Positions 27,572 through 35,693 of a stretch of DNA of 48,123 nucleotides are shown here, piece by piece. A model generated the notes under the pieces. That model made no database searches. It had not been told where the DNA came from and saw nothing but the letters and a program-made list of their open reading frames with translations. How positions within the stretch are numbered: position 1 is the stretch's first letter; the number at the start of each line of letters is the position of its first letter. Source of the stretch: an uncultured bacterium (GTDB lineage: Bacteria; Zixibacteria; MSB-5A5; CAIYYT01); contig CAIYYT010000261.1 in NCBI GenBank assembly GCA_903930455.1, positions 1 through 48,123 on the forward strand, in the 5' to 3' direction. A program made the position numbers and the translations under genes.

Positions 27572-28393
27572 TTACCCCTTCAGCGCCCCCGCAATGATTC
27601 CCTCAGTAATTCTCTTGGAGTATGCCACAAACAGGAGAGTGGTCGGTATCACCGAGATCACTGATGCCGCGAACAACTGTGGGACATCGATGTTCTGATA
27701 TCCCTGCAACAATGCCAGCGCCACCGGCAATGTTCGCATGGATTCTGATGATGTCAGAATGAACGGATAGATAAACGAATTCCAATTGACCATAAACGTC
27801 TGCACTGCCAACACCGCCAATGCCGGTTTGCAGAGTGGTATCACGATCCGCCAGATTATTGTCATCTCGCTGGCCCCTTCCAACCGCGCCGAATCCTCCA
27901 TATCGGGGGGGATTGCCAAAATGTACTGTCGCATCAGGAATATCCCCAATGGGCTGACCAAAAACGGCAGGATCAAGGCCAGATAGGTGTCGAAGATTCC
28001 CAGCCAGTTGGTCATCAAATACAGTGGAATGATCACAACATGCACCGGTACCATCAGCACCAATACCACAGTCACCATCAAGAACCCCTTGCCGCGAAAC
28101 CTTCGCCGCGCCAGCACATAGCCGCATAGCGTGCAGAAGAATAGATTACCAAGCGTGACAATCACTGCCACTGCGATTGAATTGGCCAATGGCAAGTACA
28201 ACTCGGCGCGCGCGAAGAGCGTCGCGAAATTTGCTAGTGTCAGGCGATAGCTACCGAGATCGATCGTGCCGGTGAGTGAAAACGTCGATGCCAACGCGCC
28301 CAGCAACAGGTAAACAAACGGCAGCAACATGATCAGCGCGATGACAATCGCGACCGCAACTCTGCCGCAATTTCTGAATGCTGCCGTCGTCAT
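27572..28393 (-). CDS. sugar ABC transporter permease, MalG type
   Basis: This 273-residue inner-membrane protein has about six hydrophobic segments. The cytoplasmic EAA loop with the usual carbohydrate-transporter form is visible (EDSARLEGASEMTIIWRIVIPLCKPALA near residue 188; here split as EDSARLEGAS and IPLCKPALA). It would form the channel with the partner permease at 28395-29276, one base away. The C-terminus (ITEGIIAGALKG) is typical of MalG/LacG proteins. The substrate is not readable from sequence, and no glycosidase is adjacent. It is the last gene of the minus-strand operon. Confidence 0.92.
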   Translation of the reverse strand: MTTAAFRNCGRVAVAIVIALIMLLPFVYLLLGALASTFSLTGTIDLGSYRLTLANFATLFARAELYLPLANSIAVAVIVTLGNLFFCTLCGYVLARRRFRGKGFLMVTVVLVLMVPVHVVIIPLYLMTNWLGIFDTYLALILPFLVSPLGIFLMRQYILAIPPDMEDSARLEGASEMTIIWRIVIPLCKPALAVLAVQTFMVNWNSFIYPFILTSSESMRTLPVALALLQGYQNIDVPQLFAASVISVIPTTLLFVAYSKRITEGIIAGALKG

Positions 28394-28394
28394 C

Positions 28395-29276
28395 TTAGGC
28401 CGTCTTATCCTTGATGAGTTTCAATTCCAACCACGAGACAATCGCAATGATGGCGAACAGGATATTTGCCGCCGCCGCGCCATATCCGATGTTGAACTTC
28501 TGCAATCCTTCTTCATACACAAAGTACACCATCGTATTTGTCGAGTTGAGCGGTCCGCCCTTGGTCATGACAAACACTTCAACGAAGATCTGGAACGACT
28601 TGATGCTGTTGAGCACAACGATAAACAATAGCATCGGCTTGAGATGTGGCAGAGTTATCACGCGAAACTGTCGCCACGCGCTCGCGCCATCCAGTCGCGC
28701 CGCTTCGTACAACTCGTTGGGAATCGACTGCAATGCGGCCAGAAACAGCAGCATATAGTATCCCGTCGCCATCCAAATATCCATGGCCATCACCGCTGCG
28801 AGCGCTGTCGCTGTCGAGAACAGGAATCCTTCTTGTGGATAGGGGGCGCCGACCAGGCCGCACAGCAATTGGATGTATCCACCGCGGGCGTACAGTGACG
28901 TGAAAATCAGCGCGACAACTACCAGCGACACCATCGATGGGAAAAAGTAGACCGACTGGAAAAAAGTCTTGAGCGGCAGGCGACCGTTAAGGAAAATCGC
29001 CAGCAGGATGGCGAAGCAGGTTGTGAACGGCAAAGTACCGATTGTAAATATAAAAGTGTTGCCGATCGCTTTCGTAAAAGCGGCGTCTTGGAGAAGCTGC
29101 GCGAAGTTGTCAAATCCGACGAAGCTATAGCTGCCGGCCAACAGACGATAGTCTGTGAAGCTCAAGAACAACGAAGCCACAATCGGAAACAGCCAGAAGA
29201 GGATGAGTGTGATCACCCAAGGTGACAAAAAGAAGTAGTCGGAAAATCGGAGCCGTTGCGTGCTATTGGTCGGCAT
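28395..29276 (-). CDS. sugar ABC transporter permease, MalF type
   Basis: This 293-residue inner-membrane protein has an N-terminal hydrophobic segment (WVITLILFWLFPIVASLFLS) and about five more. The EAA loop reads YEAARLDGASAWRQFRVI near residue 194. It pairs with the MalG-type permease encoded immediately downstream and overlaps the upstream substrate-binding-protein gene by 14 bases. The usual ATPase (MalK/MsmX type) is not in this operon; a shared ATPase encoded elsewhere is common for this family. Confidence 0.92.
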   Translation of the reverse strand: MPTNSTQRLRFSDYFFLSPWVITLILFWLFPIVASLFLSFTDYRLLAGSYSFVGFDNFAQLLQDAAFTKAIGNTFIFTIGTLPFTTCFAILLAIFLNGRLPLKTFFQSVYFFPSMVSLVVVALIFTSLYARGGYIQLLCGLVGAPYPQEGFLFSTATALAAVMAMDIWMATGYYMLLFLAALQSIPNELYEAARLDGASAWRQFRVITLPHLKPMLLFIVVLNSIKSFQIFVEVFVMTKGGPLNSTNTMVYFVYEEGLQKFNIGYGAAAANILFAIIAIVSWLELKLIKDKTA

Positions 29277-30525
29277 ATTTCTTTAGAATCGCCGCACAGT
29301 CGTTGTCGATCATCTGCAACGCATCCTCAGGAGATTTCTTCTTGTACAACGCCTGCTCGATACCGCGTTCCAACACTTCCTCCAGCGACACCCAGGCCGG
29401 ATGAACCGGCGTTGAGCGCGAGTTGTGCAACTGCTCCTGAAAGACGCGTGCGATTGGTGTCAACTCGGCATCATAAGTCATCGTTGATAGAGTATTGACT
29501 GGTGTAAAACTTCCCGTCGCCCGGGCAAACATCGTGTCATTTTGTGGCTGCACTAGAAAGCGAATCAATCCCATTGCCATGTCGGGATTTTTGCTTGCAG
29601 AACTGACGACGAGGTACTCGCCCCCCGCAAATGACATGCCCGGTTTCTTGCCCCCCGGCGAAGGCATCGTTGTGACGAAGTAGTCGAACGATCGTTCCAT
29701 GCCGCTGAGCTTTTTCACCAGCCACTCCCCTGAAATCACAAAGCCGATCTTGCCTGCCGCAAAGTAATCCTCGATACGCGCTTGCGTTTCGACCAACCCG
29801 TTCGCGGACAAGCGCAGATAGTACTCCAAACTCTTGCGTCCGGCATCGGAGCTGAATTGCGTGGCGGTCATATTGCTATTGAATACTTCGCCCCCGGCAG
29901 ACCAAAAGAAGGGAAGGTACTTCTTGTACAGTCGATGTCGCTCCGCCGAATTCGAGCCGAATCCGAAGTGGTTGTCTCCGAGCCGACTGATCTTGGCTGC
30001 TGCCTCCGCCAGTTCAATCCATGTCTTTGGCACAAACGTTTCATCATAGCCCGCCTGTTTGAGCAAAGTGCGATTGCAGAACAATACGCGCGTGCCGAGC
30101 ATCCACGGCACGGCGTAGCGCTTGCCCTGATATATCGCCGGATCCCACATGAGCAAACTGTCTGTCAATCCCAGTGTTGCGGCTGTCAAATCAGAGAGCT
30201 TGCCACTGGCGGCAAATTCGCTGATCCAGTCCGACCCAAGCTCGATCACATCTGGCCCCCCTCCGGCTGCCAGAGCAATCGCAATCTTTTCATGGCCATC
30301 CGCCCAGGTCAGGTCGCCAAGCTGCACTTTGACTTGCGGGTGTGTTCTTTCGAATTCGCCGATCATCTGCTGCACTGTCGGTTTGACTTCCGGGTTTGTC
30401 CAAAACTGCCAAAACGTTACGACCGTCCTTCCCGACGACGACTTGCCGCACGACAGCGTCATTGCTGTCATGAAAACTACTATGGCAACCAGTGCCAGTC
30501 TCGCGCAGTTTCTTATCTTACCCAT
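29263..30525 (-). CDS. sugar ABC transporter substrate-binding lipoprotein
   Basis: This 420-residue protein is a family 1 extracellular solute-binding protein. A lipoprotein signal (VFMTAMTLSCGKSS) puts the acylated cysteine near residue 26. The mature part starts TVVTFWQFWTNPEVK and contains FERTHPQVKVQ and GGGPDVIELGSDW, as in maltose/oligosaccharide-binding proteins. It would deliver sugar to the two permeases encoded next. There is no Shine-Dalgarno before the ATG at 30525. TTGACA at 30562-30557 and TGATAT at 30537-30532, six bases before the ATG, suggest a leaderless or short-leader transcript. Confidence 0.9.
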   Translation of the reverse strand: MGKIRNCARLALVAIVVFMTAMTLSCGKSSSGRTVVTFWQFWTNPEVKPTVQQMIGEFERTHPQVKVQLGDLTWADGHEKIAIALAAGGGPDVIELGSDWISEFAASGKLSDLTAATLGLTDSLLMWDPAIYQGKRYAVPWMLGTRVLFCNRTLLKQAGYDETFVPKTWIELAEAAAKISRLGDNHFGFGSNSAERHRLYKKYLPFFWSAGGEVFNSNMTATQFSSDAGRKSLEYYLRLSANGLVETQARIEDYFAAGKIGFVISGEWLVKKLSGMERSFDYFVTTMPSPGGKKPGMSFAGGEYLVVSSASKNPDMAMGLIRFLVQPQNDTMFARATGSFTPVNTLSTMTYDAELTPIARVFQEQLHNSRSTPVHPAWVSLEEVLERGIEQALYKKKSPEDALQMIDNDCAAILKKYADQ

Positions 30526-30718: not shown

Positions 30719-31507
30719 GTGAACTCTTTCATTCTTGCAACAGGCGTGTTCGACCCCGCGTCATTAGTCCTTTTGATCTGGGTGCTTCTGACCTGTGGCG
30801 TTGTCTCTTACTTCAGCTATCGCCGACACGTTTCGCCTCTGCGACTGCGCGCTATTCCGGGCATTGCCGCGATCGAGGAGGCTGTTGGCCGGGCTACCGA
30901 ACAGGGCAAGCCGATTGTTTTCACTACCGGTTGGGGGGGTGACATTCAGCGCCCGACCACGCTGGCCGCACTAAATCTGTTGCGCTTCGTCGCCGGCAAG
31001 GCGGCATCCTACGGCTGTCGTATTCTATTTCCGACGCACGATCCGGTTATCGCTGAAGCCGCCAAAGAAATCATCCGCACCGCCTACAACGAGGCCGGTC
31101 ATCCCGATCAGTTCCGCGAGGACGACGTCACTTTCGTCTCGCCGTCGCAGTTTGGATACGCTTCCGGGGTTGACGGCATCGTTTCGCGTCAAAAACCGGG
31201 TGCGATATTTCTCTTCGGTACTTTCGAAGGCGAAGCGCTCATTCTTGCCGAAACCGGCAATATCAACGGCGCGCTGCAAATCGCCGGCACCGATTCGACC
31301 ATCCAGCTATCGTTCTTTATCGTTGCCTGCGATTACACATTGATCGGCGAGGAGCTATACACAGCGTCGGCATACCTAACCGATGATCACCGCGTGCAAT
31401 CATCAATGTATGCACAAGACCTGATCCGCGCCGTTCTCGTGACGCTCTTGATCCTGCTACCGATACTCGCCATGCTCGGCGTCAATCTCTACAAGGAGAT
31501 TCTATGA
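30719..31507 (+). CDS. DUF6754-like membrane-anchored protein, first gene of a five-gene membrane operon
   Basis: This 262-residue protein has one N-terminal membrane segment (LVLLIWVLLTCGVVSYFSY), a soluble alpha/beta domain and a C-terminal membrane segment (AVLVTLLILLPILAMLGVNLY). The soluble part begins PGIAAIEEAVGRATEQGKPIVFTTGWGG and has further strand-loop repeats such as PGAIFLFGTFEGEALILAE. The opening resembles the domain I know as DUF6754, whose function is not established. The start is a GTG at 30719, overlapping the end of a possible hydrophobic mini-ORF. Its stop overlaps the next ATG (ATGA), so coupled translation is likely. Which side of the membrane the soluble domain faces is not clear. 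Confidence 0.7.
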   Translation: MNSFILATGVFDPASLVLLIWVLLTCGVVSYFSYRRHVSPLRLRAIPGIAAIEEAVGRATEQGKPIVFTTGWGGDIQRPTTLAALNLLRFVAGKAASYGCRILFPTHDPVIAEAAKEIIRTAYNEAGHPDQFREDDVTFVSPSQFGYASGVDGIVSRQKPGAIFLFGTFEGEALILAETGNINGALQIAGTDSTIQLSFFIVACDYTLIGEELYTASAYLTDDHRVQSSMYAQDLIRAVLVTLLILLPILAMLGVNLYKEIL

Positions 31508-32115
31508 CCAACCGACTGGCGTGGATCGCAACTCTGGTTACCGGCCTGTTCATGATGGCGCAATATTTCATCAAGACAGAGGCGACGAATGCCATCTACA
31601 CGACGCTGTTGGATTATTATCAGATCATCTTTGCCGTGAGCATGATTGTCGGCGGTATTGGTTTGTTGAAACAGCATTCCCTCAAAGTGCAGCGTTCGTC
31701 CCAGCAGCGTGGCTACAGCCTGATCACTATCACGGCCATTTTGTTCATGGTCATAGTCGCGGTTATCTCCGGTACCGGTGCAACCTCCCCATATCAATGG
31801 GCATTCAACAATCTGCAAGCTCCGATGCAGGCGACGACCTTCTCTCTGCTTGCCTTTTTTGTGGCGTCGGCAGCCTATCGAGGATTTCGCGTCAAATCAG
31901 CGCCAGCCTTTGTCCTTGCGTTGGCGGCCATAATTGTGTTGGTCGGCAAAAGTGGTTTCGGCGAAATGATCTCGCAGCAGCTACCGGCTATTGCCGGTTG
32001 GGTACTCAACAACCCATCCACAGCGGCCAAACGGGGAATTTTGATCGGCGTCGGCATCGGTTCTGTGGCAACCGCGCTGCGTGTGATCCTCGGCATCGAA
32101 CGGAGTTATCGGTGA
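31504..32115 (+). CDS. six-segment membrane protein of unknown function
   Basis: This 203-residue protein has about six hydrophobic segments, starting at LAWIATLVTGLFMMAQYF, YYQIIFAVSMIVGGIGLL and SLITITAILFMVIVAVISG. It has no catalytic motif I can recognise. The loop between segments 3 and 4 (SPYQWAFNNLQAPMQATTF) is the most distinctive stretch. It overlaps the gene before (ATGA) and the gene after (TGATG), so all are probably made together and may form one membrane complex. It is not a known transporter family to me. Confidence 0.75.
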   Translation: MTNRLAWIATLVTGLFMMAQYFIKTEATNAIYTTLLDYYQIIFAVSMIVGGIGLLKQHSLKVQRSSQQRGYSLITITAILFMVIVAVISGTGATSPYQWAFNNLQAPMQATTFSLLAFFVASAAYRGFRVKSAPAFVLALAAIIVLVGKSGFGEMISQQLPAIAGWVLNNPSTAAKRGILIGVGIGSVATALRVILGIERSYR

Positions 32116-32936
32116 TGTCACGATTATTGAGTACATTCTCAGCCCGTCACCTCGTATTCCTCGTAGTCTTACTCGCGGCTACGATTCCGCTTTTGCTCAA
32201 CATCCGCCTGACCCATACCGCTTCTGACGAAACCAAACACTTTTATGCCAATATCGACAGTCTGCCGTCCGGAAGTGTCGTGCTGATGTCATTTGACTTC
32301 GAGGCATCCGCGTTTGCCGAAATCAAGCCGCTGGCTGAAGCCGTTCTTCGTCACTGCTTCCGCCAAAATCTCCGGGTTATCGGCCTGTCGCTTTTTGCGG
32401 AAGGCACTGCGCTTGGAGAACAGACTTTGTCTCGAATCGCAAGGGAGAAGGGCAAAGTATACGGAACGGATTATCTCTATCTCGGTTTCCGACCGCAATG
32501 CACTTCGGCAATTCTGGCGATAGGGGAGTCATTGCCGAAAGAATTCCCGACAGACTACTTCGGCGCCGCCACGGCAACCATGCCGGTGCTCTCGGGTGTC
32601 ACCAACTACGATCAAATCGCAACCGTGATTTCCATCACCGATGGCGGCATGCCGACCTACTGGGTCGATTACGCCGTGACCCGCTACCATGCACGCCTAC
32701 AGACCGTGCTGACCGCCACGATGGTGACATCGTTCTATCCATATATCTCCTCCGGCCAGATACAGAGTCTGATTGCCGGTCTCAAAGGGGCTGCGGAATA
32801 CGAGCTGTTGCTCAACGAGAGCGGTGGAGGTGGCAGAGGTCTCCTGGCGCAGTCGGTGTCGCAGATCGCTATTCTGGCGATAATTCTTGCCGGCAACATG
32901 GTCGGCTATCTCGACAGGAGGCGCAAGTGGCAATAG
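32115..32936 (+). CDS. membrane-anchored alpha/beta-domain protein of unknown function
   Basis: This 273-residue protein has the same layout as the first gene of the operon: an N-terminal membrane segment (LVFLVVLLAATIPLLLNI), a soluble domain and a C-terminal membrane segment (SQIAILAIILAGNMVGYL). The soluble domain has strands such as SVVLMSFDFEA, LRVIGLSLFA and YLYLGFRP, and a later IATVISITDGG. This is a Rossmann-like strand pattern without a clear nucleotide-binding or catalytic motif. A Gly-rich linker (SGGGGRG) precedes the last membrane segment. The ATG at 32115 shares one base with the previous stop. A distant relation to the DUF6754-like protein is possible. Confidence 0.72.
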   Translation: MSRLLSTFSARHLVFLVVLLAATIPLLLNIRLTHTASDETKHFYANIDSLPSGSVVLMSFDFEASAFAEIKPLAEAVLRHCFRQNLRVIGLSLFAEGTALGEQTLSRIAREKGKVYGTDYLYLGFRPQCTSAILAIGESLPKEFPTDYFGAATATMPVLSGVTNYDQIATVISITDGGMPTYWVDYAVTRYHARLQTVLTATMVTSFYPYISSGQIQSLIAGLKGAAEYELLLNESGGGGRGLLAQSVSQIAILAIILAGNMVGYLDRRRKWQ

Positions 32937-33553
32937 CTAGCCTCGCTGCGGCAATAGTAACCGTCGGTATCTTTTCTTTTCTCTACCGCGATAATCCATT
33001 CTATCGCGCATGCGAGCATCTCTTGATCGGGCTTTCCGTCGGCTTCTCACTGGTTCTGCTCTGGAACTCGGTGCTGATTCCGAAACTACTGCAACCGCTG
33101 TTTATCGAAGGGCGCTTGCTGGCGCTGATTCCGTTCGTGCTAAGTCTGCTGATGTTGCTGCGCCTCAAGAGTTCGCTCTCCTACTTGAGCAAACCGGTGC
33201 TGGCACTGGTAATTGGTTCGGGGGCCGGAGTTAGTATTCCTGCTATGTTTGAGGCGCGTGTGTTGCGTCAGATCGCTGCCAGTGTCGAGCCATTTGGCGT
33301 GGTAGGGGACGGTTCGGTATCGGCATTGATGCTGCTGGGGATGCTGATCTCACTGGTAGGCGTTGTCACCGTGATTGTCTACTTCTTTTACACCCGCCCC
33401 GACACAAAAGCATTTAATGGCGTCAGCCAGATCGGTGTCTACTTTCTGATGATCTTTTTCGGTGCGACTTACGGCTATACCGTCACGTCACGGCTAACGC
33501 TACTAATCGGCAGGATTGAGTTCCTGCTGGGTGATTTTCTACATCTGCTATGA
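32927..33553 (+). CDS. six-segment membrane protein of unknown function
   Basis: This 208-residue protein has about six hydrophobic segments (first IASLAAAIVTVGIFSFLY; last IGVYFLMIFFGATYGYTV). A conserved-looking stretch RDNPFYRACEHLLIG follows the first segment. The GTG at 32927 has AGGAGG five bases upstream and begins ten bases before the previous stop; a longer upstream frame is an out-of-frame shadow of the previous gene. Its stop overlaps the ATG of the zinc-ribbon gene. With 31504-32115 this gives two polytopic subunits in the operon beside two anchored soluble ones. Confidence 0.75.
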   Translation: MAIASLAAAIVTVGIFSFLYRDNPFYRACEHLLIGLSVGFSLVLLWNSVLIPKLLQPLFIEGRLLALIPFVLSLLMLLRLKSSLSYLSKPVLALVIGSGAGVSIPAMFEARVLRQIAASVEPFGVVGDGSVSALMLLGMLISLVGVVTVIVYFFYTRPDTKAFNGVSQIGVYFLMIFFGATYGYTVTSRLTLLIGRIEFLLGDFLHLL

Positions 33554-33678
33554 CCTGCAAGAAGTGCCATATCCAGATGAAGGAGGAGAAGCGAACCTTC
33601 CACAAGCAACGCAAATGGATTTGCCCGCGCTGTGGTGCCGTGCGCTTCCAACTCGCAAAAAAGCCTGAAAAAAAGTAA
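33550..33678 (+). CDS. 42-residue zinc-ribbon protein
   Basis: This small gene (too short for many gene callers) starts with an ATG overlapping the previous stop (ATGA). It encodes a protein with two Cys pairs: CKKC at residues 3-6 and CPRC at 25-28, about 18 residues apart, followed by GAVRF and a Lys-rich tail. This is the shape of a zinc ribbon. The coupled start, the Cys spacing and the basic character make chance unlikely. It may be a cytoplasmic accessory to the membrane proteins encoded before it, or a nucleic-acid-binding protein that merely shares the transcript. Confidence 0.75.
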   Translation: MTCKKCHIQMKEEKRTFHKQRKWICPRCGAVRFQLAKKPEKK

Positions 33679-33690
33679 TCAAAAAATGAT

Positions 33691-33718
33691 TTGCACAACT
33701 TTAAGGATTCGTTTTAAT
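33691..33718 (+). promoter_or_regulatory. candidate promoter for a leaderless DUF72 transcript
   Basis: TTGCAC (33691-33696) and TTTAAT (33713-33718) are 16 bases apart, with six bases from the -10 to the ATG at 33725. The last 14 bases are nearly identical to those before the ATG at 21599. The -35 is a weak match. Confidence 0.4.
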
Positions 33719-33724
33719 TTCTTT

Positions 33725-34513
33725 ATGAGCAATGGGTTAGTTCGTGTTGGAACTTCAGGGTATTCGTTTGATGACTGGCGTGGCGCGTTCTATCCGGAGA
33801 AGATAGAGAAAACGAAGATGCTTGACTACTATGTAGGTCACTTTGACACCGTAGAAATCAACTCGACCTACTACGGCATCCCACATCCGCATGTGTTCGA
33901 GGCGATGGCCAAGAAGACCCCCGAGGGATTCGATTTTATGGTGAAAGCTCATCAGTCACTAACCCACAAACGTGACCAGCTCGAACAGGAAACGCCCAAA
34001 TATCTCGAAGCGATCAAACCCTTGATCGAATCGGGCAAATTCAAGGGGATTCTGGCGCAATTCCCTTGGTCTTTTCCAAGGGTGCCGGCTCATCTTGAGT
34101 ATCTCAGGAAATGTCGCCAGGCTCTAGGTAACTTGACGTTATTCATTGAGTTCCGCCACTCAAGCTGGATTAAGCAGGATACGTTTGATTTACTAAAATC
34201 ACTGGAGATAGGGTACGTCTCTGTCGATGAACCTCAATTAGAGAAGATGATCGAGCCACTGGCTGTGGCTACGACGGCCGTCGGCTATGTCCGCTTTCAC
34301 GGACGGAATTCTGAAGATTGGTATAGCGGCAGGGGATCGGATAGGTATAATTACTCATATAGCAGGGATGAATTGACCGAGTGGGTGGAGAAGATCAGAC
34401 GATTGAAGAAAGACACGGAAGTTATTTACTTGTTCTTTAACAATTGCCACCTCGGCCAGGCAGTGTTTAATGCGAAGCAGATGATGGAGATGCTGGATGT
34501 ACAACGGAACTAA
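33725..34513 (+). CDS. DUF72 domain protein
   Basis: This 262-residue soluble protein begins VRVGTSGYSFDDWRGAFYP, the standard opening of DUF72. It continues with FDTVEINSTYYGIP near residue 40, FDFMVKAHQSLTH near 70, FIEFRHSSW near 140, VRFHGRN near 190 and IYLFFNNCHLGQAVFNA near 240. The family has a TIM-barrel fold; its biochemical role is not established. I chose the ATG at 33725, where homology begins; there is no Shine-Dalgarno, but a promoter placed for leaderless transcription is visible. The following carboxypeptidase gene starts 17 bases before its stop. Confidence 0.9.
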   Translation: MSNGLVRVGTSGYSFDDWRGAFYPEKIEKTKMLDYYVGHFDTVEINSTYYGIPHPHVFEAMAKKTPEGFDFMVKAHQSLTHKRDQLEQETPKYLEAIKPLIESGKFKGILAQFPWSFPRVPAHLEYLRKCRQALGNLTLFIEFRHSSWIKQDTFDLLKSLEIGYVSVDEPQLEKMIEPLAVATTAVGYVRFHGRNSEDWYSGRGSDRYNYSYSRDELTEWVEKIRRLKKDTEVIYLFFNNCHLGQAVFNAKQMMEMLDVQRN

Positions 34514-35414
34514 ACGAATCGGATTTGTCTCACTCTCGGTTTTTCTTGCGATGACGATCTTCTGGCCAACTCCGGCCACACAGACAATAACCAAGGAATA
34601 CTACGGCCCGCCGGCGCCGATTTTTCATACGCTAAGTATTACACCTCCTAAGCTTTTTTGCGAGGCAGCGTTCTTGCAGGACAACAGCACGTCGGAAAAA
34701 CTCTACGGCAAAGATGAGTACAACGTTCGCCCGATTGCCAGCATCACTAAGCTGATCACCGCGTTGACGTTCCTCGATTTCAAAGTCGATTGGGACAAGA
34801 CGATCGAAATGGACACCTCGGATGCCAACAACTCCTCGCGCTCGCCACTCAGGGCAGGGGATGTCTACCGCGTGCGCGACTTGTTCCATTGCAGTCTGAT
34901 GTCTTCCGACAACCGCGCCACCCGCGCACTCGCCAGATCCACCGGCGTCTCCACCGACAGTTTTATCGTGATGATGAATCGGAAGGTTGACAGTCTCGGG
35001 CTGTTCAGTATCAAAGTTGACGAAGTCACGGGCCTGTCGGAGAATAATGTCGCCAGTGCTTATGACCTTGCCCGGTTAGTGAATATCGCCTCCGCGAACC
35101 CAACAATTCAGACGGCTCTTCTCACTAAGCAGTACAGCTTCATTTCTGAGAAGCGCAAGCGTCTGATCACACTCGGCAATACGGATCGGCTCTTGTTCAG
35201 CGAGTGGAATGTCCAGGGTGGGAAAACCGGTTACATTGGGGAATCAGGCTATTGCTTTGCCGTGAGAATCGCCAACGATAAGGGGCATGACCTGACCGGT
35301 GTCGTGCTGGGTGCGCACTCCAACAGCCGTCGTTTCAAGGAGGCGACCAAACTGTTCCAATGGGCGTTTACAGCTTTGGACAAGTTGCAGGCGAATACAA
35401 TTGGGAAGTTGTGA
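34497..35414 (+). CDS. D-alanyl-D-alanine carboxypeptidase/endopeptidase, peptidase family S11
   Basis: This 305-residue exported protein belongs to the low-molecular-mass penicillin-binding proteins. It has an N-terminal hydrophobic signal or anchor (IGFVSLSVFLAMTIFWPT) and the three catalytic boxes: S82-x-x-K85 in ASITKLITAL, SxN in MSSDNRATRAL near residue 137, and K243-T-G in GGKTGYIGESGYC. It would trim D-alanine or cut cross-links in murein. The length is that of PBP7-type enzymes without the extra C-terminal domain of PBP5. It overlaps the DUF72 gene by 17 bases. Confidence 0.92.
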   Translation: MYNGTKRIGFVSLSVFLAMTIFWPTPATQTITKEYYGPPAPIFHTLSITPPKLFCEAAFLQDNSTSEKLYGKDEYNVRPIASITKLITALTFLDFKVDWDKTIEMDTSDANNSSRSPLRAGDVYRVRDLFHCSLMSSDNRATRALARSTGVSTDSFIVMMNRKVDSLGLFSIKVDEVTGLSENNVASAYDLARLVNIASANPTIQTALLTKQYSFISEKRKRLITLGNTDRLLFSEWNVQGGKTGYIGESGYCFAVRIANDKGHDLTGVVLGAHSNSRRFKEATKLFQWAFTALDKLQANTIGKL

Positions 35415-35474: not shown

Positions 35475-35547
35475 GGCGCCCTAGCTCAGTTGGTAGAGCA
35501 GCAGACTGAAAATCTGCGTGTCCCCAGTTCAATTCTGGGGGGCGCCA
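35475..35547 (+). tRNA. tRNA-Phe (anticodon GAA)
   Basis: A complete cloverleaf: acceptor GGCGCCC/GGGCGCC, D-arm GCTCAGTTGGTAGAGC, anticodon stem GCAGA/TCTGC with loop CTGAAAA (GAA at 35508-35510), T-arm CCCAG-TTCAATT-CTGGG and discriminator A. The 3' CCA is not encoded. Confidence 0.97.
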
Positions 35548-35620
35548 CATTTGCATGATAGCGCACTCGGGCATCCGGGTGCCCCCCCCCGCTTGCGGTG
35601 GGTCTTGAGATAGATTACAC

Positions 35621-35693
35621 GCCACCCTAGCTCAGTTGGTAGAGCAGCTGATTCGTAATCAGCAGGTCGTCGGTTCGACTCCGATGGGTGGCT
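35621..35693 (+). tRNA. tRNA-Thr (anticodon CGT)
   Basis: A complete cloverleaf: acceptor GCCACCC/GGGTGGC, D-arm GCTCAGTTGGTAGAGC, anticodon stem GCTGA/TCAGC with loop TTCGTAA (CGT at 35654-35656) and a normal T-arm. CCA is not encoded. It lies 73 bases after tRNA-Phe and is probably co-transcribed. Confidence 0.97.

Follow-up and report, generated by a model that had tools for sequence, protein, structure and literature searches.

Within the 48,123-nucleotide stretch of a Zixibacteria contig (CAIYYT010000261.1) that was analysed, called the window below, a run of overlapping membrane protein genes contains a four-gene cassette, A-B-C-D, that recurs in at least a dozen bacterial phyla together with two cytoplasmic partners, c1 and c0, encoded outside the window. 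We are highly confident that ABCD functions as a unit and that c0 and c1 are part of the same system, and no described system fits this combination, judging by the families and literature searched. Reading the gene families and their copy numbers together, we tentatively propose, giving the idea nearly an even chance, that c1 and c0 may be a shared ATP-dependent energiser or activator acting on several ABCD membrane complexes.

Gene set in the window

Five plus-strand genes overlap end to start at the coordinates given in the original prediction, all of which were confirmed (gene calls are simple ORF choices). Gene A (30719..31507, +; 262 aa, GTG start) shares 4 bases, ATGA, with gene B (31504..32115, +; 203 aa), which in turn overlaps gene C (32115..32936, +; 273 aa) in TGATG. 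Gene D (32927..33553, +; 208 aa) begins at a GTG within C, with an overlap of 10 bases, and runs into gene E (33550..33678, +), a 42-aa zinc ribbon with the pattern CxxC-x19-CxxC, again through ATGA. The suspected resemblance of the first gene to DUF6754 proved well founded, since A is a clear member of PF20539 (282 bits, E 4.5e-84, against a Pfam gathering cut-off of 27 bits), a family without assigned function whose description omits B, C, D, c0 and c1. Neither Pfam nor NCBIfam contained a family matched by B, C or D, and a Pfam search of 32 B and 34 D members (E <= 0.1) returned no known family, including no transporter family. Both B and D carry about six hydrophobic segments, as had been expected of two of the genes. 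The absence of an assigned function also held up in the search for a known complex, which gave no match in Pfam, NCBIfam, the PDB or Foldseek (A and C models, E <= 0.001), and our literature search turned up no paper dealing with either DUF6754 or an operon of this kind.

Structure and predicted topology of A to D

AlphaFold2 models of A and C were confident (pLDDT 92.4 and 96.6, respectively), and both show a transmembrane (TM) helix, a six-strand alpha/beta domain of the order alpha-beta1-alpha-beta2-alpha-beta3-alpha-beta4-alpha-beta5-alpha-beta6-alpha, and a further TM helix. The alpha/beta domain between N- and C-terminal membrane segments is thus as originally described, but the term “single-anchor” does not apply, both proteins being double-anchored. 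The window copy of A consists of a short predicted extracytoplasmic N-end, a TM helix at about 13-34, a predicted cytoplasmic Rossmann-like domain and a TM helix at about 224-252; in C, a predicted extracytoplasmic Rossmann-like domain lies between the two TM helices and is followed by a basic C-end. These locations are predicted from charge bias alone. In A, the mean number of K+R is 3.9 after the first TM helix versus 0.7 before it, which places the domain in the cytoplasm; in C, it is 2.2 at each end, which places the domain outside. By the same criterion, B is predicted to be N-in/C-in and D, weakly, N-out/C-out.

A Foldseek search with the A and C models returned no match to a solved fold at E <= 0.001, only generic Rossmann-like folds, and a sequence search of the PDB matched none of A, B, C or D (for A and C, nothing at E <= 10). 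Conserved residues near strand ends are typical of ligand-binding Rossmann-like domains. Such residues are present in both proteins, namely E172, E178, Q187, T191, Q196, D205, E211 and E212 in A and D61, E69, D119, D147, T200 and E230 in C. Given the lack of a Foldseek match at that threshold, the suggestion that A and C bind ligands comes from this conservation only.

The layout that A and C were said to share is real, in that helices and strands follow the same order in both models, but the idea that they are paralogues found no support at the sequence level: hhalign gave a probability of 2%, our own profile alignment gave z values of -0.6 to 2.5, which are not significant, and strand-anchored scores were mixed. 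A duplicated two-gene module (A with C, B with D) likewise lacked significant sequence support in hhalign and in our own profile alignment.

ABCD as a conserved, repeatedly duplicated unit

In 179 of the 190 copies with room downstream, from many phyla, profiles built from the window's own genome showed A-B-C-D in this order and on one strand, so that the travelling unit comprises four genes. Homologs scattered singly across genomes had been named beforehand as the outcome that would speak against a linked system; the gene-neighbourhood survey instead revealed this linkage. The operon of the original prediction is therefore real as far as A to D are concerned, while E is a lineage-specific addition rather than a general fifth member. 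Among the 11 copies that break the order, some seem to stem from ORF labels that are too long or from breaks in the assembly, and two loci (L042 and L046) have A alone, yet C elsewhere in the genome. One cassette (L055, 3263-8237) has four C-type genes: one is in place and three follow D, C alone having expanded locally.

Our survey covered a sample of a few hundred genomes. DUF6754 was detected in all 133 Zixibacteria genomes, usually in 4-6 copies each, in 66 of 254 genomes outside Zixibacteria and in none of 14 control genomes. Relatives of A occur, among others, in Marinimicrobia, Eisenbacteria, Riflebacteria, a Caldithrix MAG, WOR-3/Stahlbacteria, Planctomycetota, Fermentibacteria/Aegiribacteria, Gemmatimonadetes, Muiribacteriota and Coatesbacteria; none was found in the viral contigs or plasmids searched. 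The set is also retained in a genome of only 0.9 Mb at 98% completeness (G328). Together, its presence in every Zixibacteria genome, its retention in this small genome and its spread over so many phyla make it likely that the ABCD system does something basic.

Five DUF6754 genes, all in A-B-C-D cassettes, are present in the window's own genome (3.77 Mb, 266 contigs): one is the window copy, contig C190 carries a tandem of three, and the fifth lies on contig C123. The whole four-gene unit has been re-duplicated in tandem. In the three tandem copies, A is extended at its N-terminus by an FN3-like domain, and the two whose 5' ends are complete also encode a signal peptide in front of it; the window copy has neither. 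The extracytoplasmic part at the N-terminus of A varies in length between 0 and about 650 aa and gives weak fn3 matches. In a tree of A, window-type copies group in a single clade (support 0.945, 8 tips), and the other Zixibacteria types (type S and the three positions of the tandem, first, second and third) are supported clades too, which indicates that the ABCD paralogues are old and have been kept apart. Such separate maintenance suggests specialisation.

Cytoplasmic partners c1 and c0

Clustering of neighbouring genes showed that, at many loci, c1 and c0 immediately precede A, and it is these co-occurring proteins that carry most of the mechanistic information on ABCD. The first, c1, is a long GlmL/MutL-like ASKHA ATPase that matches PF13941 with an E value of 8.6e-129 over the full 450-position profile and NF040745 with 1.9e-69. 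Its ASKHA core is shared in full with GlmL/MutL, and the two phosphate motifs (ATDCGSTTTKAIL and GVDIGGATTD) are retained in 75 sequences. Yet c1 differs from GlmL/MutL (PF13941, NF040745, TIGR01319) in length (about 600-690 aa versus about 460), in sitting with c0/ABCD and in scoring below both the NCBIfam GlmL equivalog cut-off (234.6 versus 475 bits) and the GlmL-family cut-off (176.7 versus 204.05 bits). The second partner, c0, has about 375 aa, with a barrel-sandwich-hybrid domain and a KOW-like end. Its members match several families weakly: RnfC_N in 13 of 19 (best E 2.2e-5; first member below the gathering score), NQRA_N in 5 of 19, biotin/lipoyl-like domains in 10 of 19 and a B12-binding family in 1 of 19; RNA polymerase beta' was matched as well.

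The association with DUF6754 extends well beyond Zixibacteria. Outside this phylum, C was found in 64 of 66 genomes with DUF6754 versus 2 of 188 without it (G224 and G362), and c0 in 61 of 66 versus 1 of 188, the single exception being a marginal match (E 8e-4). For c0, Fisher's test yielded p 1e-51, with genomes treated as independent, most of them being from different families. MutL-family proteins are likewise present in 61 of the 66 genomes with DUF6754. Their long form, of about 600-690 aa, hardly occurs outside DUF6754-containing genomes, strong MutL matches elsewhere being of a short form of about 455-503 aa. The exception is a 615-aa long-form protein (G218:C120:2249-3664) in a genome that is 85% complete and has no DUF6754, C or c0 match, possibly reflecting an assembly gap or independent use. 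In the two genomes with C that lack DUF6754, a divergent operon (L221, 8148-11927; L222, 5957-9721) contains D, C and a weak B match without PF20539; the position of A is occupied by a protein of 243 aa that has an A-like layout and a hydrophobic segment at its N-terminus, and a 485-aa protein is encoded upstream.

Operons of the order c17-c5-c1-c0-A-B-C-D, in which c17 is a small PH-like protein with two TM segments and c5 has about 100-130 aa, recur in Fermentibacteria, Planctomycetota and others; in Marinimicrobia, the order is c1-c0-c5-ABCD. In the c1 loci inspected, the neighbours were c17, c5, c0 and ABCD, and glutamate mutase genes were not recognised among neighbours whose annotation is incomplete. 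Elsewhere, c1 and c0 often lie away from ABCD, usually still adjacent to each other, and 5 of the 66 DUF6754-containing genomes outside Zixibacteria have no c0 match and 5 no MutL match. The window's own genome encodes a single, adjacent c0-c1 pair (G000:C83, 14899-17946) versus five A and five C genes. One c1 and one c0 per n ABCD copies is the pattern expected if several specialised membrane complexes depended on a common energiser or activator.

Possible function and alternative explanations

From these observations we infer a physical complex, its topology, the use of ATP and the direction of coupling. A, B, C and D would form one inner-membrane complex, in which A may present its ligand-binding alpha/beta domain on the cytoplasmic face and C on the extracytoplasmic face, while the six-helix proteins B and D would make up the membrane core between them. 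The usually single-copy cytoplasmic c1 and c0 would act on all ABCD copies of a cell, using ATP to energise or (re)activate them; one motor might thus serve several complexes, each specialised through its paralogous A-D set and the extracytoplasmic N-terminal part of its A. Our confidence that ATP drives ABCD is moderate, and it is low for any particular substrate. GlmL is described as a chaperone for the reactivation of glutamate mutase (PMC4682846), so that ATP-driven activation of ABCD has the closest precedent; the chief alternative under this model is ATP-coupled transport. With a single ATP module, usually present in one copy, for several membrane modules, the arrangement resembles ECF-type transporters, but the ABCD set lacks an ABC ATPase or a known transporter family, and its ATPase has an ASKHA fold. 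It is also conceivable that c1/c0 and ABCD could co-occur through a common pathway instead of direct contact.

The precedent of GlmL could also be taken more literally: ABCD might be a membrane enzyme with a labile cofactor or radical, for which c1 and c0 are an ATP-dependent reactivating chaperone, with no transport involved. The family relationship of c1 and the described chaperone role of GlmL (PMC4682846) argue for this explanation, as does the fact that one chaperone for 1-7 clients agrees with the copy numbers. However, c1 falls well under both GlmL cut-offs, and no B12-binding domain or known cofactor motif is present in A-D, the one weak B12-binding match being in c0, so that we regard this as unlikely, if worth serious consideration. 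We find it improbable that ABCD is a sensor or signalling complex, in which the FN3-like part of A senses, its cytoplasmic domain reports and the paralogues take different cues, with E as output in the window copy. While the variable extracytoplasmic part of A, the several orthologous types retained per genome and the zinc ribbon in one of them would suit such a role, A-D contain no receiver, kinase, cyclase or DNA-binding domain, and two six-TM proteins with an obligatory ATPase partner exceed what a sensor needs.

Resemblance to Rnf/Na+-NQR suggests yet another explanation, a distant ion or electron translocator in which c0 stands for RnfC/NqrA, B and D for RnfA/E and C for RnfG. In favor of this are the RnfC_N and NQRA_N matches of c0 and a similar layout, with two six-TM subunits and TM-anchored domains, one outer and one inner. 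Homology of B and D to Rnf/Nqr was nevertheless unsupported: no Rnf/Nqr membrane family, be it RnfA/E (NqrD/E) or RnfD (NqrB), was matched by the members searched above, neither protein has an invariant or nearly invariant cysteine, an FMN or Fe-S motif was not noticed, and the ASKHA ATPase takes the place of the redox subunits. Moreover, the c0 signal is that of a generic barrel-sandwich fold, which also fits biotin/lipoyl domains and RNA polymerase beta', and we therefore consider the explanation very improbable, the likeness serving as a works-like analogy only. Least credible of all is that ABCD is a syntenic block of unrelated membrane proteins linked only through common descent. Within Zixibacteria the flanks of each copy type are indeed syntenic too, but the near-invariant gene order across many phyla despite different flanks, the tandem re-duplication of the four-gene unit and the tight co-occurrence of A, C and c0 speak against it. 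An anti-phage defence system, also considered, was rejected since PADLOC gave no match for A-E, c0, c1 or c17 and c5 only resembled Cmr5 weakly (E 0.003).

Returning to a shared energiser, we judge it about as probable as its contrary, or slightly less so, that ABCD with c1/c0 represents a new class of membrane machine, with a Rossmann-like domain on either face, a six-helix core made of two proteins and a GlmL-family ASKHA ATPase acting via a barrel-sandwich adaptor. DUF6754 gains a defined partner set and a testable energy source, and for the GlmL/MutL family a new role outside glutamate mutase is suggested. Should ASKHA-powered transport or membrane-enzyme activation be demonstrated, ATP would be coupled to a membrane complex in a new way.

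Zinc ribbon E and genomic context

The 42-residue zinc ribbon proposed as the last gene was upheld: of the 8 loci of the window's orthologous type, 7 (the window, L096, L097 and L106-L109) have E behind D, overlapping it or close to it, which argues for a genuine gene and not a chance ORF. In none of the tested cassettes of other types was E found behind D. E may be a small zinc-binding subunit or regulator added to the window copy.

Upstream of A lies a divergent carbohydrate ABC importer with two permeases and an SBP_bac_1 binding protein (27572-30525, -), and the same transporter families are also divergent beside the window-type copies in L097, L106-L109 and L117. Other copy types adjoin PTS enzyme I-like, PGI and sugar nucleotidyltransferase genes. 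A role in sugar metabolism is a weak hint from these neighbours, because contexts differ between phyla and, within Zixibacteria, reflect simple synteny. Downstream of E, the window encodes a DUF72 protein (33632-34513, +), found downstream of the window-type copy in L107-L109 too, followed by a D-alanyl-D-alanine carboxypeptidase (34497-35414, +; Peptidase_S11, E 3.5e-42) and a tRNA-Phe and tRNA-Thr pair (35475-35693). In WOR-3 and Fermentibacteria (L162, L163 and L164), ExbB/ExbD/TonB-like and TonB-receptor-like genes are located downstream of D.
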